DNA from: a virus
Virus record (IMG/VR): IMGVR_UViG_3300032323_000975
Span: 1-40,250 of that record
Reading direction: 5' to 3' (one strand)
Length of the DNA: 40,250 nt
A model generated the notes under the pieces. That model ran no database searches and was not told the origin of the DNA. It was given only the letters and a program-made list of their open reading frames with translations. Within the stretch, counting starts at the first letter, position 1, and each line of letters begins with the position of its first letter. Made by a program: the position numbers and the translations under genes. Of this stretch, positions 10,145 to 40,250 are shown one piece after another.

Positions 10145-10413
10145 TGGCCACCTACGCATTAGAGGCTAGAACCTGGTTCGATAAGACCTACGGCAACACC
10201 TACTATTCCCTACGCATCACGGGAGAGGGGCTAGACCTAGTTGTTCCTATGACCTACGGCCACGGGACTCTTACGTTCCGCCACCGTGCCGCCACGGAGC
10301 TAGGTCTAGAGTGGGGCGCACTGTCTCACGATGAACGGCGGGAAATGTTCCCTATCACGGAGTACGCCGTACCCCGTAGGCGTGACCTACACAAACTAGA
10401 AACGGGGGCGTAG
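10144..10413 (+). CDS. Hypothetical protein (89 aa)
   Basis: Starts MATYALEARTWFDKTYGNTY, with a predicted beta-rich first half and a basic C-terminus (AVPRRRDLHKLETGA). The start at 10144 forms TAATG with the upstream stop; an upstream in-frame start lies inside the previous gene. No family recognised. Confidence 0.72.
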   Translation: MATYALEARTWFDKTYGNTYYSLRITGEGLDLVVPMTYGHGTLTFRHRAATELGLEWGALSHDERREMFPITEYAVPRRRDLHKLETGA

Positions 10414-10415
10414 TC

Positions 10416-10694
10416 ATGTATGAGGATTACCGATACAACCCAGATCTAATGGTACGCAAGCGGGTAGGCGGTTGGCAGCTCCAATGGCACCCGTCTCGCC
10501 CTGGCCTATGTTGGGCTATTCCCGAATACCTAAAGACGTTCCGCCGGTGCGAGTCGGCGGTCATGTATGACGACGGGCGGCTAGGTTGGGACACTCAGTA
10601 CGGCGTACCGCAATATGTCAAGAGCAAGGTGGCGGCGTTCATAATCGACTGCCAACAGAAACACAACACAACAACAGAAACAGAAAGGGGTTAG
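10416..10694 (+). CDS. Hypothetical protein (92 aa)
   Basis: Starts MYEDYRYNPDLMVRKRVGGW. Aromatic-rich (many Trp/Tyr), with the pattern GGWQLQWHPSRPGLCWAIPEY, which looks like a small beta-sheet domain. It follows the previous gene by 2 bases. Its C-terminal coding end carries the repeated ACAACAGAAA leader that also precedes the gene at 10846. Confidence 0.72.
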   Translation: MYEDYRYNPDLMVRKRVGGWQLQWHPSRPGLCWAIPEYLKTFRRCESAVMYDDGRLGWDTQYGVPQYVKSKVAAFIIDCQQKHNTTTETERG

Positions 10695-10696
10695 CG

Positions 10697-10843
10697 ATGA
10701 CCGACTACAACGGCCAACAGTGTCCCGTATGCGGTGACACTATGACCACGGGACACTCAAACTATGTGCCCGTATGGAGCGATCCGCATGACGATGTCGT
10801 GTGTATCCATTGTAAAGAAACAACAGAAAAAGAAAGGGGTTAG
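10697..10843 (+). CDS. Small zinc-ribbon protein (48 aa)
   Basis: Starts MTDYNGQQCPVCGDTM and has a second CIHC pair near residue 36, a classic four-cysteine zinc ribbon. Ribosome site AGAAAGGGG precedes the ATG at 10697. No partner known. Confidence 0.75.
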   Translation: MTDYNGQQCPVCGDTMTTGHSNYVPVWSDPHDDVVCIHCKETTEKERG

Positions 10844-10845
10844 AG

Positions 10846-11181
10846 ATGACTAGCCAACACTGCAGCGAGTGCAACTATCACCTAGACGGTTACGCCGATC
10901 ATGAAACCGTGTGCGGGGCGTGTTTCGTTATTGCTACGTGGCAGAACACCCACGAATTAGCAGCAATAACAGAGCAACTTTCCGCCACATATCGCCAACT
11001 AGAAACGGCACTAAACCGTCTCGACACTCTCGACGGGGCAGGCCGTAGCGGGTACGGGCGCAAGCTTGACCAGGTGCGGTGGTTGTTGGGTGATCTCATA
11101 GCCGACATGACCCCAACAACGGAACCGGCAGATATTGACGGGGCGGGAGCGTTCACAACAGCAGCCGAGAGGGGGCAGTGA
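10846..11181 (+). CDS. Zinc-ribbon plus coiled-coil protein (111 aa)
   Basis: The N-terminus has two cysteine pairs (CSECNYHL and CGACF) forming a probable zinc ribbon, then a helical coiled-coil-like segment (residues 30-65) and a low-complexity acidic tail. Preceded by a ribosome leader nearly identical to that of the previous gene (AGAAAGGGGTTAG). Stop overlaps the next ATG (TGATG). Confidence 0.75.
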   Translation: MTSQHCSECNYHLDGYADHETVCGACFVIATWQNTHELAAITEQLSATYRQLETALNRLDTLDGAGRSGYGRKLDQVRWLLGDLIADMTPTTEPADIDGAGAFTTAAERGQ

Positions 11182-12470: not shown

Positions 12471-12509
12471 CCCCGCCTGGCGTTCCCCCTTCCGCCAGGT
12501 GGGGTTTTT
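12471..12509 (+). terminator. Intrinsic terminator of the rightward cluster
   Basis: Twelve-bp stem CCCCGCCTGGCG (12471-12482) / CGCCAGGTGGGG (12493-12504), one G-T wobble, loop of 10 bases, then TTTTT. It sits between convergent units. On the minus strand the hairpin has no T-run, so it acts mainly rightward. Confidence 0.93.
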
Positions 12510-12792
12510 ACTTTCTCCACCTAATCGGTTGGGCGACCCGCACGTGTTGATCTCTTTCTTTCGGGGTCATGTTCCCCCAATAGCCCTCTCGACGGCCTGT
12601 CTCCGCCTCAAACGCAAGCTGGTAGGTCAAGCATTGGAGCGTGACCGTACAGGCATCGCAGTATTGTTTCGCTGCTGCCCAATGCACCCGTCGAACATCA
12701 CCGGAGGGGATTTCTGGAAAGAAGATGTCGGGGCGGTTCACGCCGTGGCAGGCACCTTTGGTTTTCCATGTGTCGTCGTGTTGTTTAGCCAC
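12508..12792 (-). CDS. WhiB-family iron-sulfur transcription regulator (94 aa)
   Basis: WhiB proteins bind a 4Fe-4S cluster and the principal sigma factor and occur only in actinobacteria and their phages. Cysteines C15, C45, C48 and C54 give exactly the C-x29-C-x2-C-x5-C spacing. The turn GYWGN (70-74) replaces the usual GVWGG and is followed by MTPKERDQ, as in the family. The start is GTG at 12792. Phage WhiBs (for example TM4 WhiB) can repress host whiB genes and affect superinfection; here it may redirect host transcription. It ends at the convergent terminator. Confidence 0.93.
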   Translation of the reverse strand: MAKQHDDTWKTKGACHGVNRPDIFFPEIPSGDVRRVHWAAAKQYCDACTVTLQCLTYQLAFEAETGRREGYWGNMTPKERDQHVRVAQPIRWRK

Positions 12793-12981: not shown

Positions 12982-13386
12982 TCAGAATGGTTGTTCGTCG
13001 TCAATCAAACGTGCATTAGGAAAAACATTCCCAACCTGTGCCATGACCTTCTCTGTTTGATCGGCAACCCATGCGTTCCAACGGCAAGACACACCAACCT
13101 CATCAGCAATCAACTTCACTGACTTACCTTTGGTGCCATCTTTCTTCGTGAACTCATCCTGTTCATAGCGACCAGCGATAATCACAGTCGAACCTTTGGC
13201 GATGGTGTTAGCGGTGTTCTCTGCAAGCTTGCCGAACACAGTGATGTTGTGCCATGTGGTTTTCTTCTTGTCATCTTTGCCGTATGTGTCAGCAACAGAG
13301 AACGTAAGAACAGCCATGCCGCCTGGTGTGTATCGCAACTCAGGATCTTGACCGACCTTACCGGACACGGTGATGTTGTTACTCAT
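12982..13386 (-). CDS. ssb: Single-stranded DNA-binding protein (134 aa)
   Basis: Clear OB-fold SSB: starts MSNNITVSGKVGQDPELRYT, has FSVAD, TTWHNITVFGKLAEN and GSTVIIAGRYE in the expected order. It ends in an acidic tip DDEQPF, like the bacterial SSB tail (DDDIPF) that recruits host repair and replication proteins. It coats ssDNA in replication and recombination. The ATG overlaps the stop of a small upstream gene by 8 bases. Shorter than host SSB because the linker is minimal. Confidence 0.96.
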   Translation of the reverse strand: MSNNITVSGKVGQDPELRYTPGGMAVLTFSVADTYGKDDKKKTTWHNITVFGKLAENTANTIAKGSTVIIAGRYEQDEFTKKDGTKGKSVKLIADEVGVSCRWNAWVADQTEKVMAQVGNVFPNARLIDDEQPF

Positions 13387-13591
13387 TGGGATTCCCTTCT
13401 TTCTGTAATGGGATTACTCTGCCAGCTTTCTTATGGCAGATGTGTGTTGGTGGGTGAACCACCGCTACGAACAAGGTTACTGCAATCTTGCAACTATGGC
13501 AAGACCATTTTGTTTTTCCTGATACGTCGACAGGCTCGACATTCTCTGCCGCCGTTGCGTTTTGTGTATGTGTTTTCTTGCGTGTATTCAT
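13379..13591 (-). CDS. Putative small zinc-binding protein overlapping the HNH gene
   Basis: The end of this frame reads WSCHSCKIAVTLFVAV then PPTHICHKKAG, a CxxC and CH arrangement like small zinc ribbons of actinophages. It overlaps ssb by 8 bases, a typical coupling. The start is uncertain: ATGs at 13648, 13621 or 13591 all lie inside the HNH gene, and none has a good ribosome site. The HNH gene may have landed on its original 5' end. I give the shortest ATG form (70 aa). Confidence 0.5.
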   Translation of the reverse strand: MNTRKKTHTQNATAAENVEPVDVSGKTKWSCHSCKIAVTLFVAVVHPPTHICHKKAGRVIPLQKEGNPNE

Positions 13592-13916
13592 GTCCGTGGG
13601 GGCAGTGTGTTTTGTTTGCATAATAGTGACGGCCTCTGTCAACAACATCTCTCATGTTGTCGGATTGGGTTCCGCCTTCTAGATGGTGTGGGTTGCAGCA
13701 TCTTCGGTTGTCGCATTTGTGGCGTACCACAGGGGGTGTTTCGTAGGTGGCGATGTAGTGGGAGAACCGGTGTACTGCACGGTGTTTCCCTGCTGCATAG
13801 AACTGTCCGTAGCCGTCTCCACGCAGGGATCCTTGCCATTCCCAACAGTCTTCAGGGTTGCCGATAGCAACTTTCGCCCAGAATCGTGTTGTGATTTTGT
13901 ACAGAAATGTTTCCAT
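13494..13916 (-). CDS. HNH endonuclease (140 aa)
   Basis: The HNH core is HKCDNRRCCNPHHLEGGTQS (from H66), with the metal-binding HNH_3-type pattern and NMRDVVDRGR after it. A second zinc-binding set follows: CPHGHEYTQENTY and ECRACRR. This layout is typical of free-standing phage homing endonucleases, which cut allelic sites and spread by gene conversion. It is inserted between the Rpf-like gene and ssb and overlaps a small gene's 5' end. It could instead aid packaging, but it is far from terL. Confidence 0.92.
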   Translation of the reverse strand: METFLYKITTRFWAKVAIGNPEDCWEWQGSLRGDGYGQFYAAGKHRAVHRFSHYIATYETPPVVRHKCDNRRCCNPHHLEGGTQSDNMRDVVDRGRHYYANKTHCPHGHEYTQENTYTKRNGGRECRACRRIRKNKMVLP

Positions 13917-13950: not shown

Positions 13951-14367
13951 TTAGCATCTGTACTTCCAGCGTTGAACCTTTGGGTGTCGGGATTTGCAGA
14001 CCAGATCTTTTAGTCCCATACAGTTAGCTTTGATAGCTCCCCATCCCCACGGTCCGACAGGCCACTTGTATTTTTTGCCTTGCCAGTGTCCTTCCCATGC
14101 GATGTTGTCCACGATGCGGGCTTGCTGCAGGGAGTTCAGTCCTTTGGCGGATGAGGTGTTAGACCAGCGTTGCCAGGTGCCACGGGCTATGCCGAACATT
14201 CCTGTGTAGGTGCGGGTCGAGTGGTTGACGTTGCTACCGGTTTCGCATTGTGCGAGTCTGCGGTAGAAGCCCCACGGCATTACGAGTTCTTCTCCGTATG
14301 CGTTGGTTGTGTTGGTTGGTGCTAGTACGGATATTGCGATGATGAGTGTGAGTGCGAGTTTTCGCAT
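13951..14367 (-). CDS. Secreted Rpf/transglycosylase-like protein (138 aa)
   Basis: Has a signal peptide (MRKLALTLIIAISVLAP, cleavage after TNA near residue 23). The following domain is like resuscitation-promoting factors: WGFYRRLAQCETGSNVN then YTGMFGIARGTWQRW, with likely catalytic E42. The C-terminus is Trp/Lys-rich with cysteines C120s-C138 that could form a disulfide. It probably cleaves peptidoglycan glycan strands outside the cell. It is not in the lysis cassette, so it might act earlier or be packaged. AAAGGA ribosome site precedes the ATG. Confidence 0.82.
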   Translation of the reverse strand: MRKLALTLIIAISVLAPTNTTNAYGEELVMPWGFYRRLAQCETGSNVNHSTRTYTGMFGIARGTWQRWSNTSSAKGLNSLQQARIVDNIAWEGHWQGKKYKWPVGPWGWGAIKANCMGLKDLVCKSRHPKVQRWKYRC

Positions 14368-14397: not shown

Positions 14398-14940
14398 CTA
14401 GGTTTCATGTGCCTCCTCAGGGGTATTGTTAAACGCATTAGACGATTCTAACCGTTCTAAAACACCAGCGAGTCCGTAAGTACCTGGGAAGATGTCATCC
14501 AACTGATCACCTGGTTCCCATCCAAGCATGGCAATAACCCATTCAAAGAACTTGTCAGGCTTTGCGCCCTTCAAACCTTTACGCATAGCGATAGCGCAAG
14601 ACAGCCAATCACGGGTCATTGGCCGTCGATGTCTCATATCACGCCCCCCCCTAAAGATGACGGGTTCCCATGCGTATTGAACAGAAACATTGACTCGTAT
14701 CTGATGAAATGTTTTTGTCCATGCAGCAACACGTACATCTTCGGGACAGACAGGGAGAATCCAAGCAAGGTCTTTGGGGTTGCAGGACAATGCCCAACCA
14801 TCTGGGTATTCGTCTGTCAATCTTTGGATAAGAAGAACGTGTGCTTCTTTGCTGTCGTACTCCGATGCGTTATCGTGATGTTCGGAATATTTTGATTTAC
14901 CGTTACCCAAGTATGGTGGGTCGGCGTATGCAAACTTCAT
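14398..14940 (-). CDS. Putative DNA adenine methyltransferase, DPPY type (180 aa)
   Basis: The catalytic DPPY is at residues 7-10 (MKFAYADPPYLGNG). A substrate loop (SKYSEHHDNASEY) and a Rossmann-like body with DEYPDGWALSCNPKDLAWIL follow. The family is like small MT-A70/adenine methyltransferases of phages, where motif I is at the C-terminal side. Target could be DNA (likely) or RNA. Preceded by AGAAAGGGG, the same ribosome site as the early genes. It is the second methyltransferase of the genome and is unrelated to the one at 6718. Confidence 0.8.
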   Translation of the reverse strand: MKFAYADPPYLGNGKSKYSEHHDNASEYDSKEAHVLLIQRLTDEYPDGWALSCNPKDLAWILPVCPEDVRVAAWTKTFHQIRVNVSVQYAWEPVIFRGGRDMRHRRPMTRDWLSCAIAMRKGLKGAKPDKFFEWVIAMLGWEPGDQLDDIFPGTYGLAGVLERLESSNAFNNTPEEAHET

Positions 14941-14968: not shown

Positions 14969-15385
14969 TCAGTCTAGCCTGAAGATCACACAGGCAGATA
15001 TCGGCACAGCGATAAACAACTCACCCGTCGTGAACTTCGTGTTCTTCTCAACCACCGGAGCAGCACGTAACGCTTGCTCATCAACAACCAGAACACAGGT
15101 TCTTTCGTCGTTCAGCATGGTAAAGAAATGATTCCAGCCGATGAACTTCTGTTTGCGGGCAGAGAAATGCACAGTCCTGTAAGGAAACTTATCCCCTTGC
15201 CAGTTATGTTTCACCTCAACCTCAAACCCGAAATCGTCACCGTCACGGGTGGCCAGCACATCAATGCCGTACAGGTCAGGGTTCACCCAAGCTGCAAACC
15301 TGTTTGTTTCTAACCATTCGATGATCCGGTATTTAGCGTTGTCATCTGCTTCGTACTGGTCAGCATCAAATGGTTTTCCAGCCAT
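14969..15385 (-). CDS. Putative PD-(D/E)XK-fold nuclease (138 aa)
   Basis: The pattern YGIDVLATRDGDDFGFEVEV-K fits the D...ExK core of the PD-(D/E)XK nuclease fold, near residues 43-63. The rest is a small alpha/beta domain. Members include restriction-like and Holliday-junction-type enzymes. Its placement with recombination and methyltransferase genes suits DNA processing. Whether it cuts is unproved. Confidence 0.65.
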   Translation of the reverse strand: MAGKPFDADQYEADDNAKYRIIEWLETNRFAAWVNPDLYGIDVLATRDGDDFGFEVEVKHNWQGDKFPYRTVHFSARKQKFIGWNHFFTMLNDERTCVLVVDEQALRAAPVVEKNTKFTTGELFIAVPISACVIFRLD

Positions 15386-15387
15386 CG

Positions 15388-15642
15388 CTAGTCCCCGCAG
15401 TATCTGCCTGGTGGGTACACAACTTTGGGGTCTGCTGTGCCTTGATTAACCATGTCCACTACGGAACGAACAGTTTCATCTACCTGTTGGGCGAATGTTT
15501 TTTCAGGTTGTAATGCTGCTAACTGCTGTTGCAGTGCGTCACGTTCTTCTGTGACCCGCATCAACTCGACCTGTAGTTCACGGATTGTTGCGTCTTGTTC
15601 TGACACTTTCTCCTCCAATGCTTCGATTAGTTCTTTGCTCAT
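15388..15642 (-). CDS. Coiled-coil protein (84 aa)
   Basis: Starts at 15642 (MSKELIEALEEKVSEQDATI), forming TAATG with the upstream gene. The residues to about 45 are a heptad-like coiled coil (LQVELMRVTEERDALQQQLA), and the C-terminal tail ends DPKVVYPPGRYCGD. It lies 2 bases before the PD-(D/E)XK gene. Possibly an oligomeric accessory protein. Confidence 0.75.
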   Translation of the reverse strand: MSKELIEALEEKVSEQDATIRELQVELMRVTEERDALQQQLAALQPEKTFAQQVDETVRSVVDMVNQGTADPKVVYPPGRYCGD

Positions 15643-15977
15643 TAGAATCCTGCTTCCTTCATTAGCCATACGATCCATTCAAACGGCATGATTGCATACC
15701 AGTTACCTGGGTCTGTGGTTCCACGCTTCTTCGCTACGACACAACCAGTGGATGCTTTAGCGTTGACAGCTTCTGCTTCTAGTTCTTTGATCCAGCCAGC
15801 CAAATCCATTTTGGCGTGGTTCTTCACTTCAAACACGATAGGCCCGCATCCGGTGATGTCGCCTTTGTCAAGTGTTCCTGTCAAGGCACGGCGTTCAGCG
15901 TATGGGAATCCGTTTTCTCGTAGGTATTTGGCAACGGCTGTTTCGGCGGCTGTGCCTTTTTGCTTTTGCTTACTCAT
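15642..15977 (-). CDS. Holliday-junction-resolvase-like nuclease (111 aa)
   Basis: Starts MSKQKQKGTAAETAVAKYLR with a helix, then RRALTGTLDKGDITGCG, then IVFEVKNHAK: the E...D...ExK layout of PD-(D/E)XK resolvases seen in actinophages. It would resolve branched DNA for packaging. The ATG at 15977 overlaps the upstream gene by 8 bases. The frame extends upstream without conserved content, so I trimmed it. Confidence 0.82.
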   Translation of the reverse strand: MSKQKQKGTAAETAVAKYLRENGFPYAERRALTGTLDKGDITGCGPIVFEVKNHAKMDLAGWIKELEAEAVNAKASTGCVVAKKRGTTDPGNWYAIMPFEWIVWLMKEAGF

Positions 15978-16206
15978 CAGATACCTCCACAGATGAAAAC
16001 ATTTTGTAATACTCGTATGTCTCACCCGTTTCTTCATTGATATGCAGACATAGTTCCTTGCGATGGGACCAGTTACCAACAATCTTGAAGCCTTCTTTAG
16101 TGGCCCGAAAGATAATGTCTCGTTCAATAGTTTCTAAAAACTGCTTCTGTATTTCTTCTGGCACCTTCATAGAAATGTCGGTTGTCGCACCGTATCTCTT
16201 ACTCAT
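15970..16206 (-). CDS. Hypothetical protein (78 aa)
   Basis: Starts MSKRYGATTDISMKVPEEIQ; helical then beta (ETGETYEYYKMFSSVEVSDE). No family recognised. It overlaps the resolvase by 8 bases and the upstream stop as TAATG, so it belongs to the same translationally coupled chain. Confidence 0.75.
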   Translation of the reverse strand: MSKRYGATTDISMKVPEEIQKQFLETIERDIIFRATKEGFKIVGNWSHRKELCLHINEETGETYEYYKMFSSVEVSDE

Positions 16207-20097: not shown

Positions 20098-20328
20098 TCA
20101 ACGTGGGCGTGTGATGTGATCCTCAACTGTTGTTAAACGCTTCTCGATACGGTCAATCGCATCACGCATAGAAGTACCACCGTTGTTCTTCATGTTTGAT
20201 TCAACGTGTGTAACAGCGTGTTCGATTCGTTGCGCCCACTTAAACATTGGATACAACACTGCACGATGGATAACACCAAGAGCAGTGACAACAGCACCTG
20301 CTGTGATGATCCATTCTGCGACAGTCAT
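20098..20328 (-). CDS. Small membrane protein with coiled-coil tail, possible holin (76 aa)
   Basis: Residues 5-24 form one membrane helix (EWIITAGAVVTALGVIHRAV). A basic, then coiled-coil cytoplasmic tail follows (DAIDRIEKRLTTVEDHITRP). This one-TM-plus-coil design is common for actinophage holin or holin-like proteins. It is ATGA-coupled to a second tiny membrane protein after the endolysin. Confidence 0.7.
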   Translation of the reverse strand: MTVAEWIITAGAVVTALGVIHRAVLYPMFKWAQRIEHAVTHVESNMKNNGGTSMRDAIDRIEKRLTTVEDHITRPR

Positions 20329-20441
20329 CTGTCGTCTTTGTTGCTAATGCGAACAGCTTCGCCCCATGCCATCAACAGAAAGATGGAGATACCAAGGATT
20401 GCACCGATACTCATCCAGATCAGCGCACCCACAGTTCTCAT
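20325..20441 (-). CDS. 38-aa transmembrane microprotein, possible holin partner
   Basis: Hand-translated: MRTVGALIWMSIGAILGISI then FLLMAWGEAVRISNKDDR. One membrane helix with a short charged tail. It overlaps the endolysin stop (ATGA) and the next membrane gene (ATGA). Located exactly where holin or antiholin genes sit. Confidence 0.75.
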   Translation of the reverse strand: MRTVGALIWMSIGAILGISIFLLMAWGEAVRISNKDDR

Positions 20442-20965
20442 CCTGCTTTTTCAGCAGCCTGTAGTTCAGCCCATACTGCAGCGAACTTGTTTGGGTTGTC
20501 TGCCATAGCAGGTGACAGTTCAAAATGCAACCAACGCCCACCTCTGGAACCGGCGTTATCTTGGTCGTTATAAATCTTGACCGACTTCGGATCGGTACCT
20601 TCGCCACGGGAACAGCGATAGCCACGACCCCACCCAGGTTTTCCGTCTTCTTTGTCGGCATCAAAGGCATAATCATGTGCTTCTTCAAGCCCTAGTGCAG
20701 CACTGTTCTTCAACATGAAATGCCACAGTTCCATCGCCTTTGTGCGGTTACTGTACCCCAAGTCGCAGGCCCTGCCAGTGGCGTGGACTGATAGCCAGCG
20801 TGGGTCGCCCTTCTTGGCTTTTGGGTTGTTCATTGAACGGTTCACAAACCCACCAAGATTGGTCAATCCGTATTCCTTCATCGCCAACTGCATGAACTTC
20901 TTTGTGCCTGGTCGAAGACCTGTACGTGAAAGTCCGTCACTGTTACCTGTGTACTTGCGTGGCAT
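20438..20965 (-). CDS. Endolysin, peptidase M15 (D-Ala carboxypeptidase-like, 175 aa)
   Basis: Zinc ligands of the M15/VanY type: SVHATGRACDLGY (H61, D68) and WLHFEL (H147, E149). It would cleave peptide stems of host peptidoglycan. No separate wall-binding domain or signal peptide, so export relies on the holin. N-terminus MPRKYTGNSDGLSRTGLRPG is a short substrate arm. The stop overlaps the microprotein's ATG. Confidence 0.9.
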   Translation of the reverse strand: MPRKYTGNSDGLSRTGLRPGTKKFMQLAMKEYGLTNLGGFVNRSMNNPKAKKGDPRWLSVHATGRACDLGYSNRTKAMELWHFMLKNSAALGLEEAHDYAFDADKEDGKPGWGRGYRCSRGEGTDPKSVKIYNDQDNAGSRGGRWLHFELSPAMADNPNKFAAVWAELQAAEKAG

Positions 20966-21378
20966 TATGGCCTCCTAAGAGAGATTGACATTAGATCAAC
21001 AACAAAGAATATGAGACAGATTAGCAGAGATATAATCTGTAAAGCACCGGATAATGTAAGGATGACGATGATCATTCCTGCGAGTGTCCAAGCCGCACCC
21101 ATCAGGTGACGTACTAGACGGGACAGGACACGACGACGCAGGGAATGTGGGCCGTTACCGAGCAGACCGATGAGATGAGTCGAAGCGACTGGTTCTTCAG
21201 CGTCAAACACAACAACGATTTCGTTGTTCAGCAAAGCTTCTTCGCCTACCTCTACCCCGATGACAGATCTGGAGAACTCTGATACTGCAATGGCGTATTT
21301 CGGTAGGGCTTTGTCTTCTTCAAACACAATGTACGAGGTGGGTGCTTTGAAGACGCTACGAAGGAATCTCTCTATCAT
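20965..21378 (-). CDS. Membrane protein of the lysis cassette (137 aa)
   Basis: N-terminal soluble alpha/beta part (MIERFLRSVFKAPTSYIVFE), then a basic stretch (SLRRRVLSRLVRHLM) and two close membrane helices at the C-terminus (residues 97-134). No family recognised. Stop and start overlap its neighbours (4 bases with the PA14 gene). A role in holin-type lysis or envelope remodelling is by location. Confidence 0.78.
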   Translation of the reverse strand: MIERFLRSVFKAPTSYIVFEEDKALPKYAIAVSEFSRSVIGVEVGEEALLNNEIVVVFDAEEPVASTHLIGLLGNGPHSLRRRVLSRLVRHLMGAAWTLAGMIIVILTLSGALQIISLLICLIFFVVDLMSISLRRP

Positions 21379-22454
21379 CGTCTTCTCCCGTTTGTTGTAC
21401 TGCTTGTGGTGGATACCCCCGTGGCTGAGATTGTAGCAACAGCCGCTATTTGTACGATGGCAACTGCGACCACGGTTCGGCGTTGTTCTTCGGTGGCGGT
21501 GAGGGTGATTTGGATCGGCCCGATACCTACCTTGCGGGTATATGTTTTACCATTCTGATTCGTCGTCTCCTGAGTCGGGGCTATCGAGGTGCTGGTCGTC
21601 GTCTCTGTCGTCGTAGGAACGCTTAGAGATGCCTCTGAGACGGTTGTAGAGGTAGAACCAAGGATCGTCGTAAGGGTCGTAGTCGATGAAAGAGTCGATG
21701 TAGGTATCTGACGAGGCAGAGAAGTTGAAGATGATGACTCCGTAGAGGGTGACAGGCTCACCGGAATCGTCGAACTCGGCGGAGTCGTAGTCGGCTGGAG
21801 TGAAGTCGATGTCGTCGTGGGCGGGTCGGGCAGTGTCGTCGTAGTGCTGGACAATATCAGCGAACTGGTGGTAGATGGCTCTGTTGTAGGCGGCAGAGTG
21901 TTCATCGTCGTCGTGGTTGTCCATACCTCAACTGTACTAAAAGCAGATGCAGGGATTATCTCCCAAGTTTCGTCAAGCATCCAATACAGTTTCACCCACG
22001 CTGCCCCACCGTTCTCGTAGTACCACAACAACATTTGTTTTGGGACACCGTATTCAAACGACACAGGTTCACTGACTGTTCCACCGCCACCTTTATCAAA
22101 CCAGTCGTAAGTGACAAGGGTGTTGTCTAGATACAGAACAGTTCCGTCATCGGCTTGTGTCATGAACCTGACATCACATGTGCATGGTGCAGTGAGATAC
22201 GAGTCGTATCGGACAACGAAATCTTCATACATATTGAACAACGGTTGACGATCAAAGTTCTGATCAACTTGTGCAACTTGTGTCGTGCCAACTATCGGTG
22301 TTGTCGGCGGTAACGGCGGGGCGTTATTGAAACCACGGTTGTTGAAAACCGTGACCGTAATACCAGGGTTCGGTGTTGCTTCTGATGTGGCGGCGAGGAA
22401 TAAGACCGATACACCGATTAGCAGTAAAGCGTATTTAGCCTTCCGACTTGTCAC
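21375..22454 (-). CDS. PA14-domain, mucin-like, membrane-anchored surface protein (359 aa)
   Basis: Signal peptide or start anchor at residues 8-26 (ALLLIGVSVLFLAATSEATP). A PA14-like domain lies about 65-165 (VRFMTQADDGTVLYLDNTLV; then YENGGAAWVKLYW). A Ser/Thr/Pro-rich stalk (about 175-300) follows, then a C-terminal membrane helix (VAVAIVQIAAVATISATGV) and basic end (GRRR). This is the design of a surface-displayed adhesin. It could bind glycans on the host cell outside and affect attachment or superinfection. It lies between endolysin and holin-like genes. PA14 assignment is by pattern only. Confidence 0.8.
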   Translation of the reverse strand: MTSRKAKYALLLIGVSVLFLAATSEATPNPGITVTVFNNRGFNNAPPLPPTTPIVGTTQVAQVDQNFDRQPLFNMYEDFVVRYDSYLTAPCTCDVRFMTQADDGTVLYLDNTLVTYDWFDKGGGGTVSEPVSFEYGVPKQMLLWYYENGGAAWVKLYWMLDETWEIIPASAFSTVEVWTTTTTMNTLPPTTEPSTTSSLILSSTTTTLPDPPTTTSTSLQPTTTPPSSTIPVSLSPSTESSSSTSLPRQIPTSTLSSTTTLTTILGSTSTTVSEASLSVPTTTETTTSTSIAPTQETTNQNGKTYTRKVGIGPIQITLTATEEQRRTVVAVAIVQIAAVATISATGVSTTSSTTNGRRR

Positions 22455-22704
22455 GCTTCACACCGAAAGCAGCATCTACTTCGTGTGCTTCAAGCTTGCC
22501 ATCCAATGAGGCTTTGGCGAGGTTGACGAGAACATCTGCGATGGCGTGGAAACCACCGAGAGCAGCCGAGTACCACAGTGGGATTTGTACGTCGGTGCCT
22601 ACTGAGTTGATGATGCTGGAGCCTGTGATGATGGTAAGGCTCGACATGATGAACAGGGCCACGATTCGGGCTGATACATCTTTGGCAATCTTCAGTGACA
22701 ACAT
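22435..22704 (-). CDS. Holin-like membrane protein (89 aa)
   Basis: Hydrophobic segments at about 12-32 (ARIVALFIMSSLTIITGSSI) and 42-65, with a charged C-terminus (AHEVDAAFGVKRDKSEG), as in r1t-type phage holins. Preceded by GAGGAG six bases before the ATG. Overlaps the surface protein gene by 20 bases. Best holin candidate by sequence, though the 20098 and 20325 genes also fit. Confidence 0.7.
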   Translation of the reverse strand: MLSLKIAKDVSARIVALFIMSSLTIITGSSIINSVGTDVQIPLWYSAALGGFHAIADVLVNLAKASLDGKLEAHEVDAAFGVKRDKSEG

Positions 22705-27027: not shown

Positions 27028-28080
27028 TCATAGCCCATACCACCGTAGGTTGTTTCGTAGCCTCTCATCGGTGGGGTTGATGTCAACGGCGGCTTGACCG
27101 TATCGCTGTGCTTCATCCATGAACCCAAGATGGTAGGCGGAGATAGCCAGCAGATCATACGGGAGCCAACCCCAAGCTTCTGCTTCACATAGATAGTCGA
27201 GTGGTTTTTCTGTGATGGTGAACGCCATGTGACAGGTGTGGTAACAGGCCCGCCAATCTTCAATGTCGTAGTAGTGCTTTGCTAAATCAACCCATGATTC
27301 ACGTCTGCCACGGTCTTCAGCGATGGCACGGTACAGGTGGAACTCACGGGCTTGTGGTCGCATCTTGGCGATATACCGGTGTGACGCTGCCCGTTCAGGG
27401 TTCCACATAGACAGGTCTAGGTGGTGCATGAAATGGTATTGGGCTAGTTCGTATTGTCCGTTGAAGAAGTATTCACGGGCTAGGTAGAACTGGTTGCGGT
27501 CATCACGGGGGTCTTCTTCGACTGCGAGTTTCAACAGGTCAAAGTATTGTCCACGGGATTTTGTTGGATCTGGGTGGTGGTGGATTTCTAGCCCGTCAAC
27601 CCAATGTTGCTTCTCGATGATTTCAGGTTTGATGACTTCGTGTACGGGGTGTTTCCATGTGTAGCCGTGGCGGGCGTGGATTTTGTCGCCACCATAAACC
27701 AAGCCTTCGGATCCGTCAGGGTTCCATGACCACACGTATTTGTAACGGGGTCGGGTCGTGCCAGCAGGGATGGCTTCTAGGGCTTCACGCCAACCTGGTT
27801 GTAGGACTTCATCCATGTCTAGGGCGATACAGATGTCAATATCTGCGGGGAGTATTTGCAGGGCATGGTTGCGGGCTGTGTCAAAACGCCACGGGTTGAA
27901 AATGCCTTCGTGGATTTTGACTCCACAGATGTTGGCTAGGTCGACTGTTCTGTCTGTTGAACCGGTATCTAGGATCAGTCGATAGTCAGCTTCGGCACAA
28001 GATTCGGCCCAACGTGCCACGAACTGTTCTTCGTTTTTAGCGATGGTATAAACCGCAATCTTTATTCTTCCATCAACCAT
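27028..28080 (-). CDS. GT2 glycosyltransferase with C-terminal TPR-like helices (350 aa)
   Basis: N-terminal GT2 (GT-A fold): YTIAKNEEQFVARWAESC, ILDTGSTDRT and a DxD-like ALDMDEVLQPGW. Residues about 190-345 are helical repeats (LAREYFFNGQYELAQYHFMH; AISAYHLGFMDEAQRYGQAA) like TPR. The family is common in aquatic phages. It transfers a sugar, perhaps to virion fibres or host surface; acceptor unknown. Overlaps the 358-aa gene by 19 bases. Confidence 0.9.
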   Translation of the reverse strand: MVDGRIKIAVYTIAKNEEQFVARWAESCAEADYRLILDTGSTDRTVDLANICGVKIHEGIFNPWRFDTARNHALQILPADIDICIALDMDEVLQPGWREALEAIPAGTTRPRYKYVWSWNPDGSEGLVYGGDKIHARHGYTWKHPVHEVIKPEIIEKQHWVDGLEIHHHPDPTKSRGQYFDLLKLAVEEDPRDDRNQFYLAREYFFNGQYELAQYHFMHHLDLSMWNPERAASHRYIAKMRPQAREFHLYRAIAEDRGRRESWVDLAKHYYDIEDWRACYHTCHMAFTITEKPLDYLCEAEAWGWLPYDLLAISAYHLGFMDEAQRYGQAAVDINPTDERLRNNLRWYGL

Positions 28081-31578: not shown

Positions 31579-32658
31579 TTACACTAGATAGCCTGCGTCG
31601 TTCAGGACTCGTTTCACATCCTCAGACACCCAATAGGTTTCGCCAGGCAGGAACTCGTATTGGGTTTTAGCAATATTGCAGGACACCCGCCGTTTGACCT
31701 GTACATCAAAATTCACAATGGCAGGAACCACCGCCGTGTCAGGTAGTAACTCCCCAACAGGCACAGCATCCAGCAAGGCTTTAGCGGCTTTCCGCCATGT
31801 GAACGCCGATGCCCCACGGGAGTTGACAACAGCTTCCGCCTGATGGGTTGACCAGTTTCGATAGTGATCAAGCATCAGTTCAGCCAACGCATCCACATCA
31901 GGTTCATCCCACTGCCCAATCGTTTTAGCAGGAGCCTTCACTGTGGGTACAACACCTGTGGCTAGATACGAGAACTCTTGATGCCCTGTCGAGTCAGACA
32001 CGATAGTTGGCATCCCTAGCGAGATTGCTTGCAACGGCATCAACCCGAACCCTTCACCACGGCTAGGAGCCACAAACACATGACCCTGTTTGAACCAGTC
32101 TTTCTGTGTTTCCAGATCCATCCACCGGCGATGCAACACAACCCTTGGGTCTTTCACATCAGGGGTGTCACGGGCGTGAGGTGCCGCTTTGATATGCAAC
32201 TCAACATCAGGTAAATCCAGTTTCAGAAACGCCTGCACCACCACGTCTAAACCTTTACGGAACCACAGCGACCCGCCAGCAAGAAACCTGAACGGCCCAT
32301 CAGGTGCGGTGTAGCCAGACCAAAACTTTGTGTCCACACCCAACTGCACCTTGCTTACATTGTCGTGATACCTACTGAACAGTTCAACATTATGGTCGCA
32401 AGGAACAATAATCTGGTCATACAGGGGAAGCCAACGAACAAAAGATTCAGGCAACACATCCGTTTCCCACATCGTAAAACACACCCGATGCTGACCATCC
32501 AGCCAAGACTCCTTCACATTCGGGACATTCATAAAAACATCCACCGAAGCCTGACCATTCAACTCGACAGTCTTAGGGACACCCGACTTGAAACCAGCCA
32601 ACATAGACCCGTACCCGTACTTCGGATCGTCAACCCCTTGCCAAGATTGAAAGTTCAC
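31579..32658 (-). CDS. GT4 glycosyltransferase (359 aa, GTG start)
   Basis: GT-B fold: GGSLWFRKGLDVVVQAFLKL near the UDP-sugar site and SRGEGFGLMPLQAISLGMPT then IVSDSTGHQEFS, the usual donor-binding motif of GT4. The C-terminus adds a small beta domain (YEFLPGETYWVSEDVKRVLN) of unknown role. GTG at 32658 overlaps the upstream stop (GTGA). It may decorate the fibres made from adjacent genes. Confidence 0.92.
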   Translation of the reverse strand: MNFQSWQGVDDPKYGYGSMLAGFKSGVPKTVELNGQASVDVFMNVPNVKESWLDGQHRVCFTMWETDVLPESFVRWLPLYDQIIVPCDHNVELFSRYHDNVSKVQLGVDTKFWSGYTAPDGPFRFLAGGSLWFRKGLDVVVQAFLKLDLPDVELHIKAAPHARDTPDVKDPRVVLHRRWMDLETQKDWFKQGHVFVAPSRGEGFGLMPLQAISLGMPTIVSDSTGHQEFSYLATGVVPTVKAPAKTIGQWDEPDVDALAELMLDHYRNWSTHQAEAVVNSRGASAFTWRKAAKALLDAVPVGELLPDTAVVPAIVNFDVQVKRRVSCNIAKTQYEFLPGETYWVSEDVKRVLNDAGYLV

Positions 32659-37261: not shown

Positions 37262-38049
37262 TAGCCAAGCTCCTTGATTGCAGAATCAATAACGTTAGTC
37301 AACCGTAAAGCACCCATAGCCGCAGCCTCATCAGGTGCTGCAGCCTCAACTGCTTGCGTGGCGGCAGTCTGAACCGATGGTGCCATAGCACCGCCCATAG
37401 CCTGATTTACTTCTTGCCGGTTATACGCCTTTACGAACTTCTCGACCTCAGCGTCAGACAAGCGACGACCAAGGATTTGGCTGGATGCTTGACGGAACAC
37501 CGCTTGAAGATCCTGCTTTGGTGTGGTGCGGATTCGTGCGCCTCCACCTACGCCTGTCCCTAGTTCGGCAGCCATCATGCTGACAGCAACGTCAAGTGTT
37601 ACACCTTTAGAGTTGGCGTACAACATCGCTTCACGCATCGCAGAGAAGTCTGCGCTGTTGAAACCAGATCGTGACGGCCTACTGTTCCCGTATGCCCCGA
37701 CTGAATACAGTTGGTTTTGGAAAGCACGGCGTTCAGCCAACGGCAACTTGGCTAACTCTGAATAAGCCTCATCGTCGGTGTATTGACCACGGATAAGAAC
37801 ACCTTGACTGTTGACAAGGTTCTGCCCGATATAGACGAACTCGTTACCACCAGTAGTCGAAGGCAGAATGTCTTTCTGATTGACTTGACCAAGAGTTTTA
37901 GAAACACCCTTAACAGTTCTCTTAGGCAACTGAACATCAGGCATCAACGAATAACCACCGCTACCAACAACCCCCAATGCTGGAGCAGTCAGGCTCGGAT
38001 TGACTTCTTCTTCTTCTTGCTGATCAATATTGGTGTTGTCTTGGCTCAT
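37261..38049 (-). CDS. Virion-associated protein after the giant gene (262 aa)
   Basis: Starts MSQDNTNIDQQEEEEVNPSL; acidic N-terminus, central helices with RRAFQNQLYSVGAYGNSRPS, Ala-rich C-terminus. ATGA overlap with the giant gene stop and TAATG with the 486-aa gene. Probably part of the internal core complex with those proteins; role inferred. Confidence 0.8.
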   Translation of the reverse strand: MSQDNTNIDQQEEEEVNPSLTAPALGVVGSGGYSLMPDVQLPKRTVKGVSKTLGQVNQKDILPSTTGGNEFVYIGQNLVNSQGVLIRGQYTDDEAYSELAKLPLAERRAFQNQLYSVGAYGNSRPSRSGFNSADFSAMREAMLYANSKGVTLDVAVSMMAAELGTGVGGGARIRTTPKQDLQAVFRQASSQILGRRLSDAEVEKFVKAYNRQEVNQAMGGAMAPSVQTAATQAVEAAAPDEAAAMGALRLTNVIDSAIKELG

Positions 38050-40250
38050 TCTTCAACCTCTGTTGATAACAGTCTCTCATACAAACGGGCAAACTCAGGT
38101 GTTTCCTCTTTCAAAGCTTTACCGATACCGGCAAGCCAATCACGAAGCGGGCCTGCAGCCACAGCAGTCGAGAACCCGCCAGGTGCGCCACCCGCCTGAA
38201 CATAACGCTCAACCGCAGATTCACGTGCCTGCAAATACTGACGGGTCGCCTCAGCAACATCGTTATCTGCAAGACGATTATCTTGCACAAGTCGAGTCAA
38301 CTGTTCCAGTTTTTTCGGGAACTCACCAGGGTTGAACTCTGCAACCACAGGGAAACCAGGGTATTCCTTGTTCAGTTTCTGTCGCCACTGGCGAAGCCAA
38401 CGCTTCTGTTCGGCAGATGGGCGTGGAGGCAACTGGTCACGCAACGCACGATACTGTGCCGATGCTGCACGGTACTGTGCCAACTCGACAATTTCACGAT
38501 CTGTCAGACGGCGACGGCGGCCCTTGGATACTTGTCGTGACCACACCTCAAATGAGAAGTTATCTCCGCCTGGTGCCATAAAGCCTGCGACATCAGGGTA
38601 TTGGTTGATTAGCCCTGAACCTTCGCCTCGTTCCCAATCACCGAACTCGTCGGTTGCTTCCAACCCGCCAGCAACTGATTCTGTTTTGTTGGAGATGTAC
38701 AGCAGGGCATCGTTGCCGTAGATACGCAGGAACTCGGACACGGCTGTGTCGTAGTTGTTTGCCTGTAGTTTTTGGAACTCTTTGACAAGTTGGGTGCCGT
38801 AGAAGTCACCGGAGATGGTTTCAATTTTGAACTCAGGGGCAGGGGATGTTGGGCCGAAGAACTGACCTAATGCACGTAACCCTGTGAGAACACGGGCTTT
38901 ACCACGGGCATCGGCGTACAGTTGTTCCTGCTCGTTCGGATCGGACAGGTCATACTCGCCTGATGCTGACAATGCCCGCAGAGTTTCGATGTAGGTGTTG
39001 CCGTACACGGTTTGCAGGTTTTGGGTGTCGCCTTCCCATGCTTGGTTCAAACGCTGGACCCACAAAGGTGTGATACCGAAACCTTCTTTTCTGCCGTATG
39101 GCAAAAGAATTTTTACTATGTCATCTGTTGCGGGGGTGTCAGGAATAATCTTTGACGCTGCGATTTGAGCCATCGGGCCGATAGATGGGATAACACCCAA
39201 ACCGATGGAGATTCGTTTTACTGGTGCCTGCAAGGGTGCTTCCATGCCTGTCAACAGTTGAGTTATCTGACCGGATAGAGGGAAGTTGAATGAGTATTCA
39301 CCTGAGGTTGCGTCACGGTAGAAGAAACCTTCACCGTCGTTGTCAGGGTCAAACTTTCTTGCACCGTCAAAAATGAGTTGGGCTTTACGGAGACGGGTTG
39401 GGTCTTCAATAACGTTCTTTGCGTAAGTGCCAAGAACTTCACGCCATGCTGCACCGAACGGAATAATGACACGCATAATGTCTTCAAGGTTGGATCGTTC
39501 TGTGGCGTTGTACAACAGTTCTTTTGTTTGGCGTAGGGCAGATGCTTTAGCGAACTCGTCTAACTGGTCAACAGTTCCTGTTGCTTGCGATGTTGATGCC
39601 GCTACTTCTTCTAGTTTGGCAAGAACTTTCTTCCCGCCAAGATAGTTTTCCAGTTTCATGCCAGCTTCTGAAGCAGACTTTTTAGCACGATCAATCAATG
39701 CTTTAGCCTCGCTAGGTGCAAGCAAATCAGAATTACGGAACACTTCATCGTAGTACGACTGGCGGAACACTGGTGACTTTTCTAAAAGCTGTGTCGCTTT
39801 GCCATATAGGTTCACAAAGAAAAAGTCAACGAACCTGTCTTTTGCTTGAAGGAACTTCTGCCCGTTGCTCGTAGCATCACCGGTGCCTCGTTGTGCAATC
39901 TTCACTTTCTGTGCAAGTTTGCCGTCAAGACCAAGAGTATCGACAAGGTTACGAAGGTTCTGTGTACCTAAACCATCGGCTGTGAAAGCAGGGCCAGCAT
40001 AAACAGGTTGTACAACATATTCTGTTTTTGTTGCAGGCAAACCAGTGAAAGGATCTGTACCAGCAGGGGTGTCAACGCTACGGATAATCAATCCTTCGTT
40101 GCCGTCTTCTAAACGAATAATCGAACCGATACCGCCGTTGCCTTCAAGGATGTCTTTAGGGTCAATGTCGTTGGGGTCAATGTTGCTTGTCCCAACAGCA
40201 GTCCATTTGCCGTCACCGAAATCAACCGTCAATGGAACCTTGTTGTATCC
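38046..40250 (-). CDS. Giant virion (ejection-type) protein, C-terminal part; begins at 2535 across the junction
   Basis: This is the C-terminal 693 codons of the 1538-aa protein (plus 41 codons duplicated in the terminal repeat). The apparent internal start near 40232 is only where the repeat begins and is not a real start. The middle has a hydrophobic stretch (residues near IIPFGAAWREVLGTYAKNV) and amphipathic regions that could contact membrane. The last 200 residues are rich in charged helices. The stop overlaps the next gene's ATG by 4 bases (ATGA). The role in DNA ejection or as an internal core protein is inferred from size and neighbours only. Confidence 0.85.
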   Translation of the reverse strand, partial: GYNKVPLTVDFGDGKWTAVGTSNIDPNDIDPKDILEGNGGIGSIIRLEDGNEGLIIRSVDTPAGTDPFTGLPATKTEYVVQPVYAGPAFTADGLGTQNLRNLVDTLGLDGKLAQKVKIAQRGTGDATSNGQKFLQAKDRFVDFFFVNLYGKATQLLEKSPVFRQSYYDEVFRNSDLLAPSEAKALIDRAKKSASEAGMKLENYLGGKKVLAKLEEVAASTSQATGTVDQLDEFAKASALRQTKELLYNATERSNLEDIMRVIIPFGAAWREVLGTYAKNVIEDPTRLRKAQLIFDGARKFDPDNDGEGFFYRDATSGEYSFNFPLSGQITQLLTGMEAPLQAPVKRISIGLGVIPSIGPMAQIAASKIIPDTPATDDIVKILLPYGRKEGFGITPLWVQRLNQAWEGDTQNLQTVYGNTYIETLRALSASGEYDLSDPNEQEQLYADARGKARVLTGLRALGQFFGPTSPAPEFKIETISGDFYGTQLVKEFQKLQANNYDTAVSEFLRIYGNDALLYISNKTESVAGGLEATDEFGDWERGEGSGLINQYPDVAGFMAPGGDNFSFEVWSRQVSKGRRRRLTDREIVELAQYRAASAQYRALRDQLPPRPSAEQKRWLRQWRQKLNKEYPGFPVVAEFNPGEFPKKLEQLTRLVQDNRLADNDVAEATRQYLQARESAVERYVQAGGAPGGFSTAVAAGPLRDWLAGIGKALKEETPEFARLYERLLSTEVEE
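40128..40250. repeat. Right copy of 123-bp exact terminal repeat
   Basis: Second copy of bases 1-123. Removing one copy gives a circle of 40,127 bp. The reading frame of the giant virion gene is the same in both copies. Confidence 0.97.

Follow-up and report, generated by a model that had tools for sequence, protein, structure and literature searches.

The window analysed here is a viral DNA stretch of 40,250 nucleotides (positions 1 to 40,250 of IMG/VR record IMGVR_UViG_3300032323_000975). It encodes a small secreted protein of the Rpf type, which is probably an exported accessory lysin (probability of roughly 0.68). Its Glu42 would cut the glycan of the host wall and complement the M15-type peptidase of the same genome. 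The gene seems to have been captured from an Acidimicrobiia-type source and to have spread between phage backbones. The protein belongs to a large viral Rpf-fold family that carries no label in PHROGs or NCBIfam and has an ancestry tied to the Acidimicrobiia. Nothing was found in the literature on this family or on the lysins of Acidimicrobiia phages. The features of the window that bear on this role are given in Table 1.

Table 1. Position of the Rpf-type gene and of the surrounding and lysis-region features in the window
Feature	Position	Strand	Evidence
WhiB regulator	12508..12792	-	PF02467 over cut-off
SSB, right anchor of slot A	12982..13386	-	PF00436
HNH endonuclease, next downstream gene, right flank of slot	13494..13916	-	PF13392 over cut-off; phrog_826 E 3.8e-35
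Secreted Rpf-type lysozyme-fold enzyme, 138 aa	13951..14367	-	ORF, family profile, AF2 model, fold search
Parts of the Rpf-type protein (residues): signal peptide ~1-23; catalytic domain ~30-138; Glu42; Cys41, 116, 124, 138	13951..14367	-	
Partial methyltransferase-like ORF, left neighbour	14398..14940	-	PF02086 E 0.057 only
Conserved protein, function unassigned, upstream of slot	14969..15385	-	homologue beside slot in Rpf- and SLT-bearing relatives
RusA-like Holliday junction resolvase, left anchor of slot A	15642..16127	-	phrog_244 E 2.2e-28
Small membrane protein, holin-like by appearance only	20098..20328	-	sequence
Putative M15-type peptidase endolysin, without signal peptide	20438..20965	-	invariant SxHxTGxAxD + HxE; weak fold similarity
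Small membrane protein, holin-like by appearance only	22435..22704	-	sequence; weak sub-threshold CidB/LrgB match

The coordinates of the Rpf-type ORF are exact. The protein starts with MRKLALTLIIAISVLAPTNTTNAYGEELVMPWGFYRRLAQCETGSN and has a signal-peptide-like N-terminus, with a Lys/Arg start and a hydrophobic stretch and without a lipobox, followed by a single catalytic domain of ~110 aa. Read as a single sequence, the window protein gives weak evidence for an Rpf identity. PF06737 matches it with an E value of 0.013 and 16.5 bits (curated cut-off 27), and phmmer matches it to RpfE (4cge) at E 0.0045. The protein has no match in PHROGs or NCBIfam, and a tblastn search of isolate phages recovered no relative at E 0.01 and, with E relaxed to 10, nothing but noise. 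The dN/dS of relatives against the window gene is 0.10-0.17, and the gene is thus under purifying selection.

The family profile, the fold and the tree all agree that the window protein is of the Rpf type. Relatives are encoded by at least 290 stretches in IMG/VR. A profile of 58 family sequences finds RpfE (E 4e-6) and RpfC (E 0.005). PF06737 is matched by 44 of these 58 relatives at E <= 0.05 (best 3.3e-9), with no other meaningful family, and the relative L250 reaches 39.2 bits, which is above the curated cut-off. The AlphaFold2 model of the window protein has a pLDDT of ~96 across residues 30-138 and is predicted to adopt an Rpf fold. Rpf structures rank top in Foldseek, where RpfE has a probability of 1.00 but an E value of only 0.016, and VIA gives Z scores of 9.6, 9.4 and 9.1 for RpfB/RpfC versus 7.7 for C-type lysozymes; these scores are moderate and the domains compared are short.

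The catalytic Glu (E42) in its AxCE context is invariant in the family alignment and is kept in all 158 complete phage ORFs. A hydrophobic signal core is present in 107 of the 108 unique family proteins, a lipobox in none and an AxA-like motif in all 108, as called by simple rules, not a dedicated predictor, and with a permissive AxA-like pattern. Exactly four Cys, counted from the active site onward, are found in 107/108 of the unique proteins, and one of them lies within a GWGC-type motif or a few residues beyond it. Four Cys would allow two disulfide bonds, as fits an exported enzyme. The preliminary description of this gene had proposed a secreted Rpf-like wall enzyme, and the Rpf-type fold, the catalytic Glu, the signal peptide and the ancestry from cellular Rpfs bear this out for the window family. 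Actinobacterial RpfB, RpfC and RpfE (PF06737) share with the family the fold, the catalytic Glu in AxCE[ST], the Cys adjoining this Glu and secretion. The phage family differs in having CET, as do most sampled Acidimicrobiia Rpfs. It is also extended at the C-terminus by a segment that holds two further Cys, lacks a second domain and sits on a long branch.

The ancestry was examined in a tree with cellular Rpfs collected from GTDB genomes. This tree is rough (92 rows and 110 columns, with bootstrap values not fully settled) and places the phage family in a single clade (100/100) on a long branch (2.45), with L298 from an Acidimicrobiia genome as the closest cellular row (95/89). The tree points to common descent with cellular Rpfs, and the family appears to nest among the chromosomal Rpfs of Acidimicrobiia. 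It does not group with the tape-measure (virion) lysins, whose Rpf motifs fall with the Actinomycetes. The Rpfs of prophi79-1 (gp102), the Streptomyces phages BRock (gp43) and pSt2308 and the Rhodococcus phage Dorin (gp28) are likewise small secreted PF06737-type phage proteins, and those of BRock and pSt2308 are encoded close to cell-wall hydrolase and endolysin genes. However, these four nest among the Actinomycetes Rpfs, suggesting captures separate from that of the window family. CET in place of CES occurs in 17/21 Acidimicrobiia rows versus 1/105 others, a count biased towards T because the Acidimicrobiia rows were chosen by their score to the phage profile. The best cellular score of the phage SSB is 89.6 bits in Acidimicrobiia versus 68.9 in Actinomycetes, which is an independent hint of the same link. 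The tree, the CET count and the SSB scores together connect the gene, and probably also the phage host, to the Acidimicrobiia. Of two peptide-pattern scans of GTDB genomes, the one with the phage alignment found nothing, and the one with a mixed alignment found ordinary cellular Rpfs only.

The window gene sits between a block holding the RusA-like gene and the gene of unassigned function, and the HNH-SSB-WhiB genes. The HNH endonuclease is found at the same position in many relatives, and the partial methyltransferase-like ORF is mostly missing from them. The gene had been placed next to regulators, which is loosely phrased: the HNH gene and the methyltransferase-like ORF are the immediate neighbours, and SSB and WhiB do follow 0.6-1.2 kb further. 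It had also been described as lying away from the lysis genes, and this is true of the window genome, in which the putative endolysin and holin-like genes are ~6 kb off. The Rpf-type gene is downstream of the endolysin and among recombination genes, at 4.7-5.8 kb in the window lineage as a whole. The M15 assignment of the endolysin is putative. The SxHxTGxAxD and HxE residues are invariant in an alignment of 31 sequences, the top Foldseek match is a weak one to LdcB, and there are scattered weak Pfam matches to M15_4, VanY and Extensin-like_C. Family searches with the small membrane protein at 20098-20328 gave no match, and a homologue of the one at 22435-22704 is kept beside the endolysin in relatives. 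A promoter scan (fewer sites than chance) and a terminator scan (sites mostly on the other strand) were discarded as evidence.

The same gene is found in three phage backbones. The arrangement of the window (A) is widespread among relatives. Backbone B carries tail genes, a holin-like gene and an ERF-like gene, and its Rpf-type gene is in the lysis region behind the holin-like gene. In 107 backbone-B loci, a number in which some contigs are counted twice, the Rpf-type gene starts 0.65-1.37 kb after the start of the M15 endolysin. The M15 gene is present upstream in 95/95 of the backbone-B loci with enough upstream sequence. The third backbone (C, e.g. L048) shares at the DNA level only the Rpf-type gene with the window (82.5% over 355 nt). 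The labels A, B and C require five changes on the gene tree, and therefore the gene has moved between backbones. The idea that an M15 endolysin is always accompanied by an Rpf was rejected, as 39 of the 51 M15 contigs with enough sequence have no Rpf downstream. L364 encodes a different, longer phage Rpf protein (10246-11025, minus strand; 259 aa; PF06737 50.2 bits), ~1.2 kb from an M15 endolysin gene and on the opposite strand.

The place of the Rpf-type gene is a swappable slot. The window-type phages L337, L339, L340 and L343 have no Rpf gene and encode in the same place a secreted SLT-domain protein (129-212 aa); PF01464 is over cut-off in all three of these that were tested. Further relatives with an SLT protein in the Rpf slot were found in both backbones A and B. 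Counted as distinct genes, slot A is occupied by Rpf in 40 cases and by SLT in 11, without an empty case; for slot B the numbers are 82 Rpf, 21 SLT and one empty (L338). These sets were retrieved by Rpf, SLT or M15, so the ratios are not natural frequencies. The slot-A loci retrieved by M15 alone have 12 Rpf, 4 SLT and no empty slot. The slot thus accepts unrelated exported transglycosylases, which are lysozyme-superfamily enzymes like the Rpf-type protein.

The exchange can be followed in close relatives. In backbone B, L442 (SLT) is ~89% identical to L250 and L255 (Rpf) across the upstream region and the signal peptide, the catalytic domain differs, and homology is back immediately past the stop codon. 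For backbone A, the sequences of L343 (SLT) and L348 (Rpf) part ~44 nt after the gene begins and come together again at its stop. Within near-identical DNA, only the catalytic domain is thus exchanged, and the signal peptide is retained. L442 is the sole backbone-B SLT protein scanned; it matches SLT-type models only below their cut-offs, and it is related to the backbone-A SLT proteins. The exchange of Rpf for SLT in the same slot argues that generic glycan cutting is selected, and not an Rpf-specific signal; selection seems to act on the cutting of the wall and not on waking. It amounts to a natural experiment, in which comparison by itself tells wall cutting apart from Rpf signalling.

Two counts that appeared to show Rpf and SLT together were set aside. 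The first, of 32 loci, was mostly due to the long tail of the L337 query, and the second reflected the signal peptide common to both enzymes in backbone B. The clear exception is a group of larger phages (L422-L426) with one exported ORF that has an N-terminal Rpf and a C-terminal SLT domain (L422:8230-9387), a fusion that was Pfam-tested in L422. The stretch between the two domains looks like a peptidoglycan-binding repeat, without confirmation from Pfam. In backbone A the HNH gene flanks the slot and could help drive the exchange; it is absent from some swapped relatives.

In the proposed role, the Rpf-type enzyme would be made during infection and exported over the membrane by Sec, independently of the holin. 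It would then weaken or prime the host wall by cutting the glycan strands of peptidoglycan via Glu42. The cytoplasmic M15-type peptidase would be released at lysis time and would cut the peptide, so that both glycan and peptide would be cleaved. The position of the gene in the window lineage, past the endolysin and among recombination genes, means that its expression could differ from lysis time. The gene itself was probably captured from a chromosomal Rpf of the Acidimicrobiia type and transferred afterwards, on its own, among unrelated phage backbones. The outcome is a testable model of lysis by two enzymes, in which the Rpf-type protein would be the accessory lysin that assists the M15-type peptidase.

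Secreted accessory phage lysins are already known, and the notable part here is the domain exchange. Tgl of Kayvirus is a secreted transglycosylase and a second endolysin encoded a few genes from lysK, and S. aureus cells producing Tgl were lysed once nisin mimicked the holin (PMC7150955). Like the window protein, Tgl is phage-borne and has a signal peptide with an AxA site and a lysozyme-like core that is shared with Rpf (PMC7150955). The two also share a resemblance to secreted autolysins of the host and, if the proposed role is right, that of a second glycan cutter beside another endolysin. Tgl differs in its protein family and host group and resembles IsaA/SceD, whereas the window family has an Rpf-type domain, which trades places with an SLT domain while the signal peptide in front stays the same.

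Cutting of glycan in general would also fit growth stimulation or remodelling of the wall during infection. An exported Rpf could sustain growth in a slow or dormant host, or in the cells around it, in the way that cellular Rpfs act. The true Rpf ancestry and domain favour this, infection by the Rhodococcus phage WC1 raises the host rpf genes (PMC10986025), and an effect of host Rpfs on infection by mycobacteriophages has been reported in a meeting abstract (PMC12908700). However, SLT-type enzymes of another family also fill the slot, the backbone-B gene is located in the lysis region, and the protein has no extra wall-binding or signalling domain. Stimulation or resuscitation of the host is an unlikely alternative. 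Since an unrelated transglycosylase is found in the slot of sister phages, an Rpf-specific waking role is not needed to explain the data. In a broader form of this idea, the slot would be a module for activating the host wall. The Rpf or its substitute would be a glycan cutter exported early, which keeps the walls of slow-growing Acidimicrobiia growing or wakes dormant cells, with lysis being secondary; this is less probable again.

Local remodelling of the wall, for superinfection exclusion or envelope changes instead of lysis, would suit an exported enzyme that in the window lineage is encoded among recombination genes and apart from the M15 gene. It is nevertheless improbable, as most relatives found have the gene in the lysis region and the small catalytic domain has no receptor-like part. 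The preliminary description had inferred a non-lysis role from the position of the gene. This is not supported in view of the 107 relatives in which it closely follows the M15 start and of the different secreted transglycosylase in sister slots, so that the earlier observation is confirmed and its interpretation only partly supported. Aid to entry had also been suggested. Tape-measure proteins of mycobacteriophages contain Rpf motifs (PMC1796659), matches to such motifs were obtained here too, and a virion-associated lysin could open the wall for DNA entry. These motifs show that phages use an Rpf-like motif elsewhere, but they are internal to a virion protein, have no signal peptide and no Cys before the Glu, and are separate in the tree. 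The window protein carries an export signal, and its gene lies between recombination genes and SSB and not in the structural block, which makes a role in the virion very improbable.

The window also has some additional features. Within the lysis region, a gene at 21375-22454 that is flanked by a putative holin gene and by the endolysin gene encodes a protein with a PA14 domain, hydrophobic ends and a long tail rich in Thr, Ser and Pro. Two glycosyltransferase-like genes occur within the structural/tail block (27028-28080, phrog_13126 E 2.9e-108; 31579-32658, phrog_2170 E 1.8e-24). The minus-strand genes at 1-2500 and 38046-40250 appear to run off the ends of the window, and the genome may be circularly permuted or cut.
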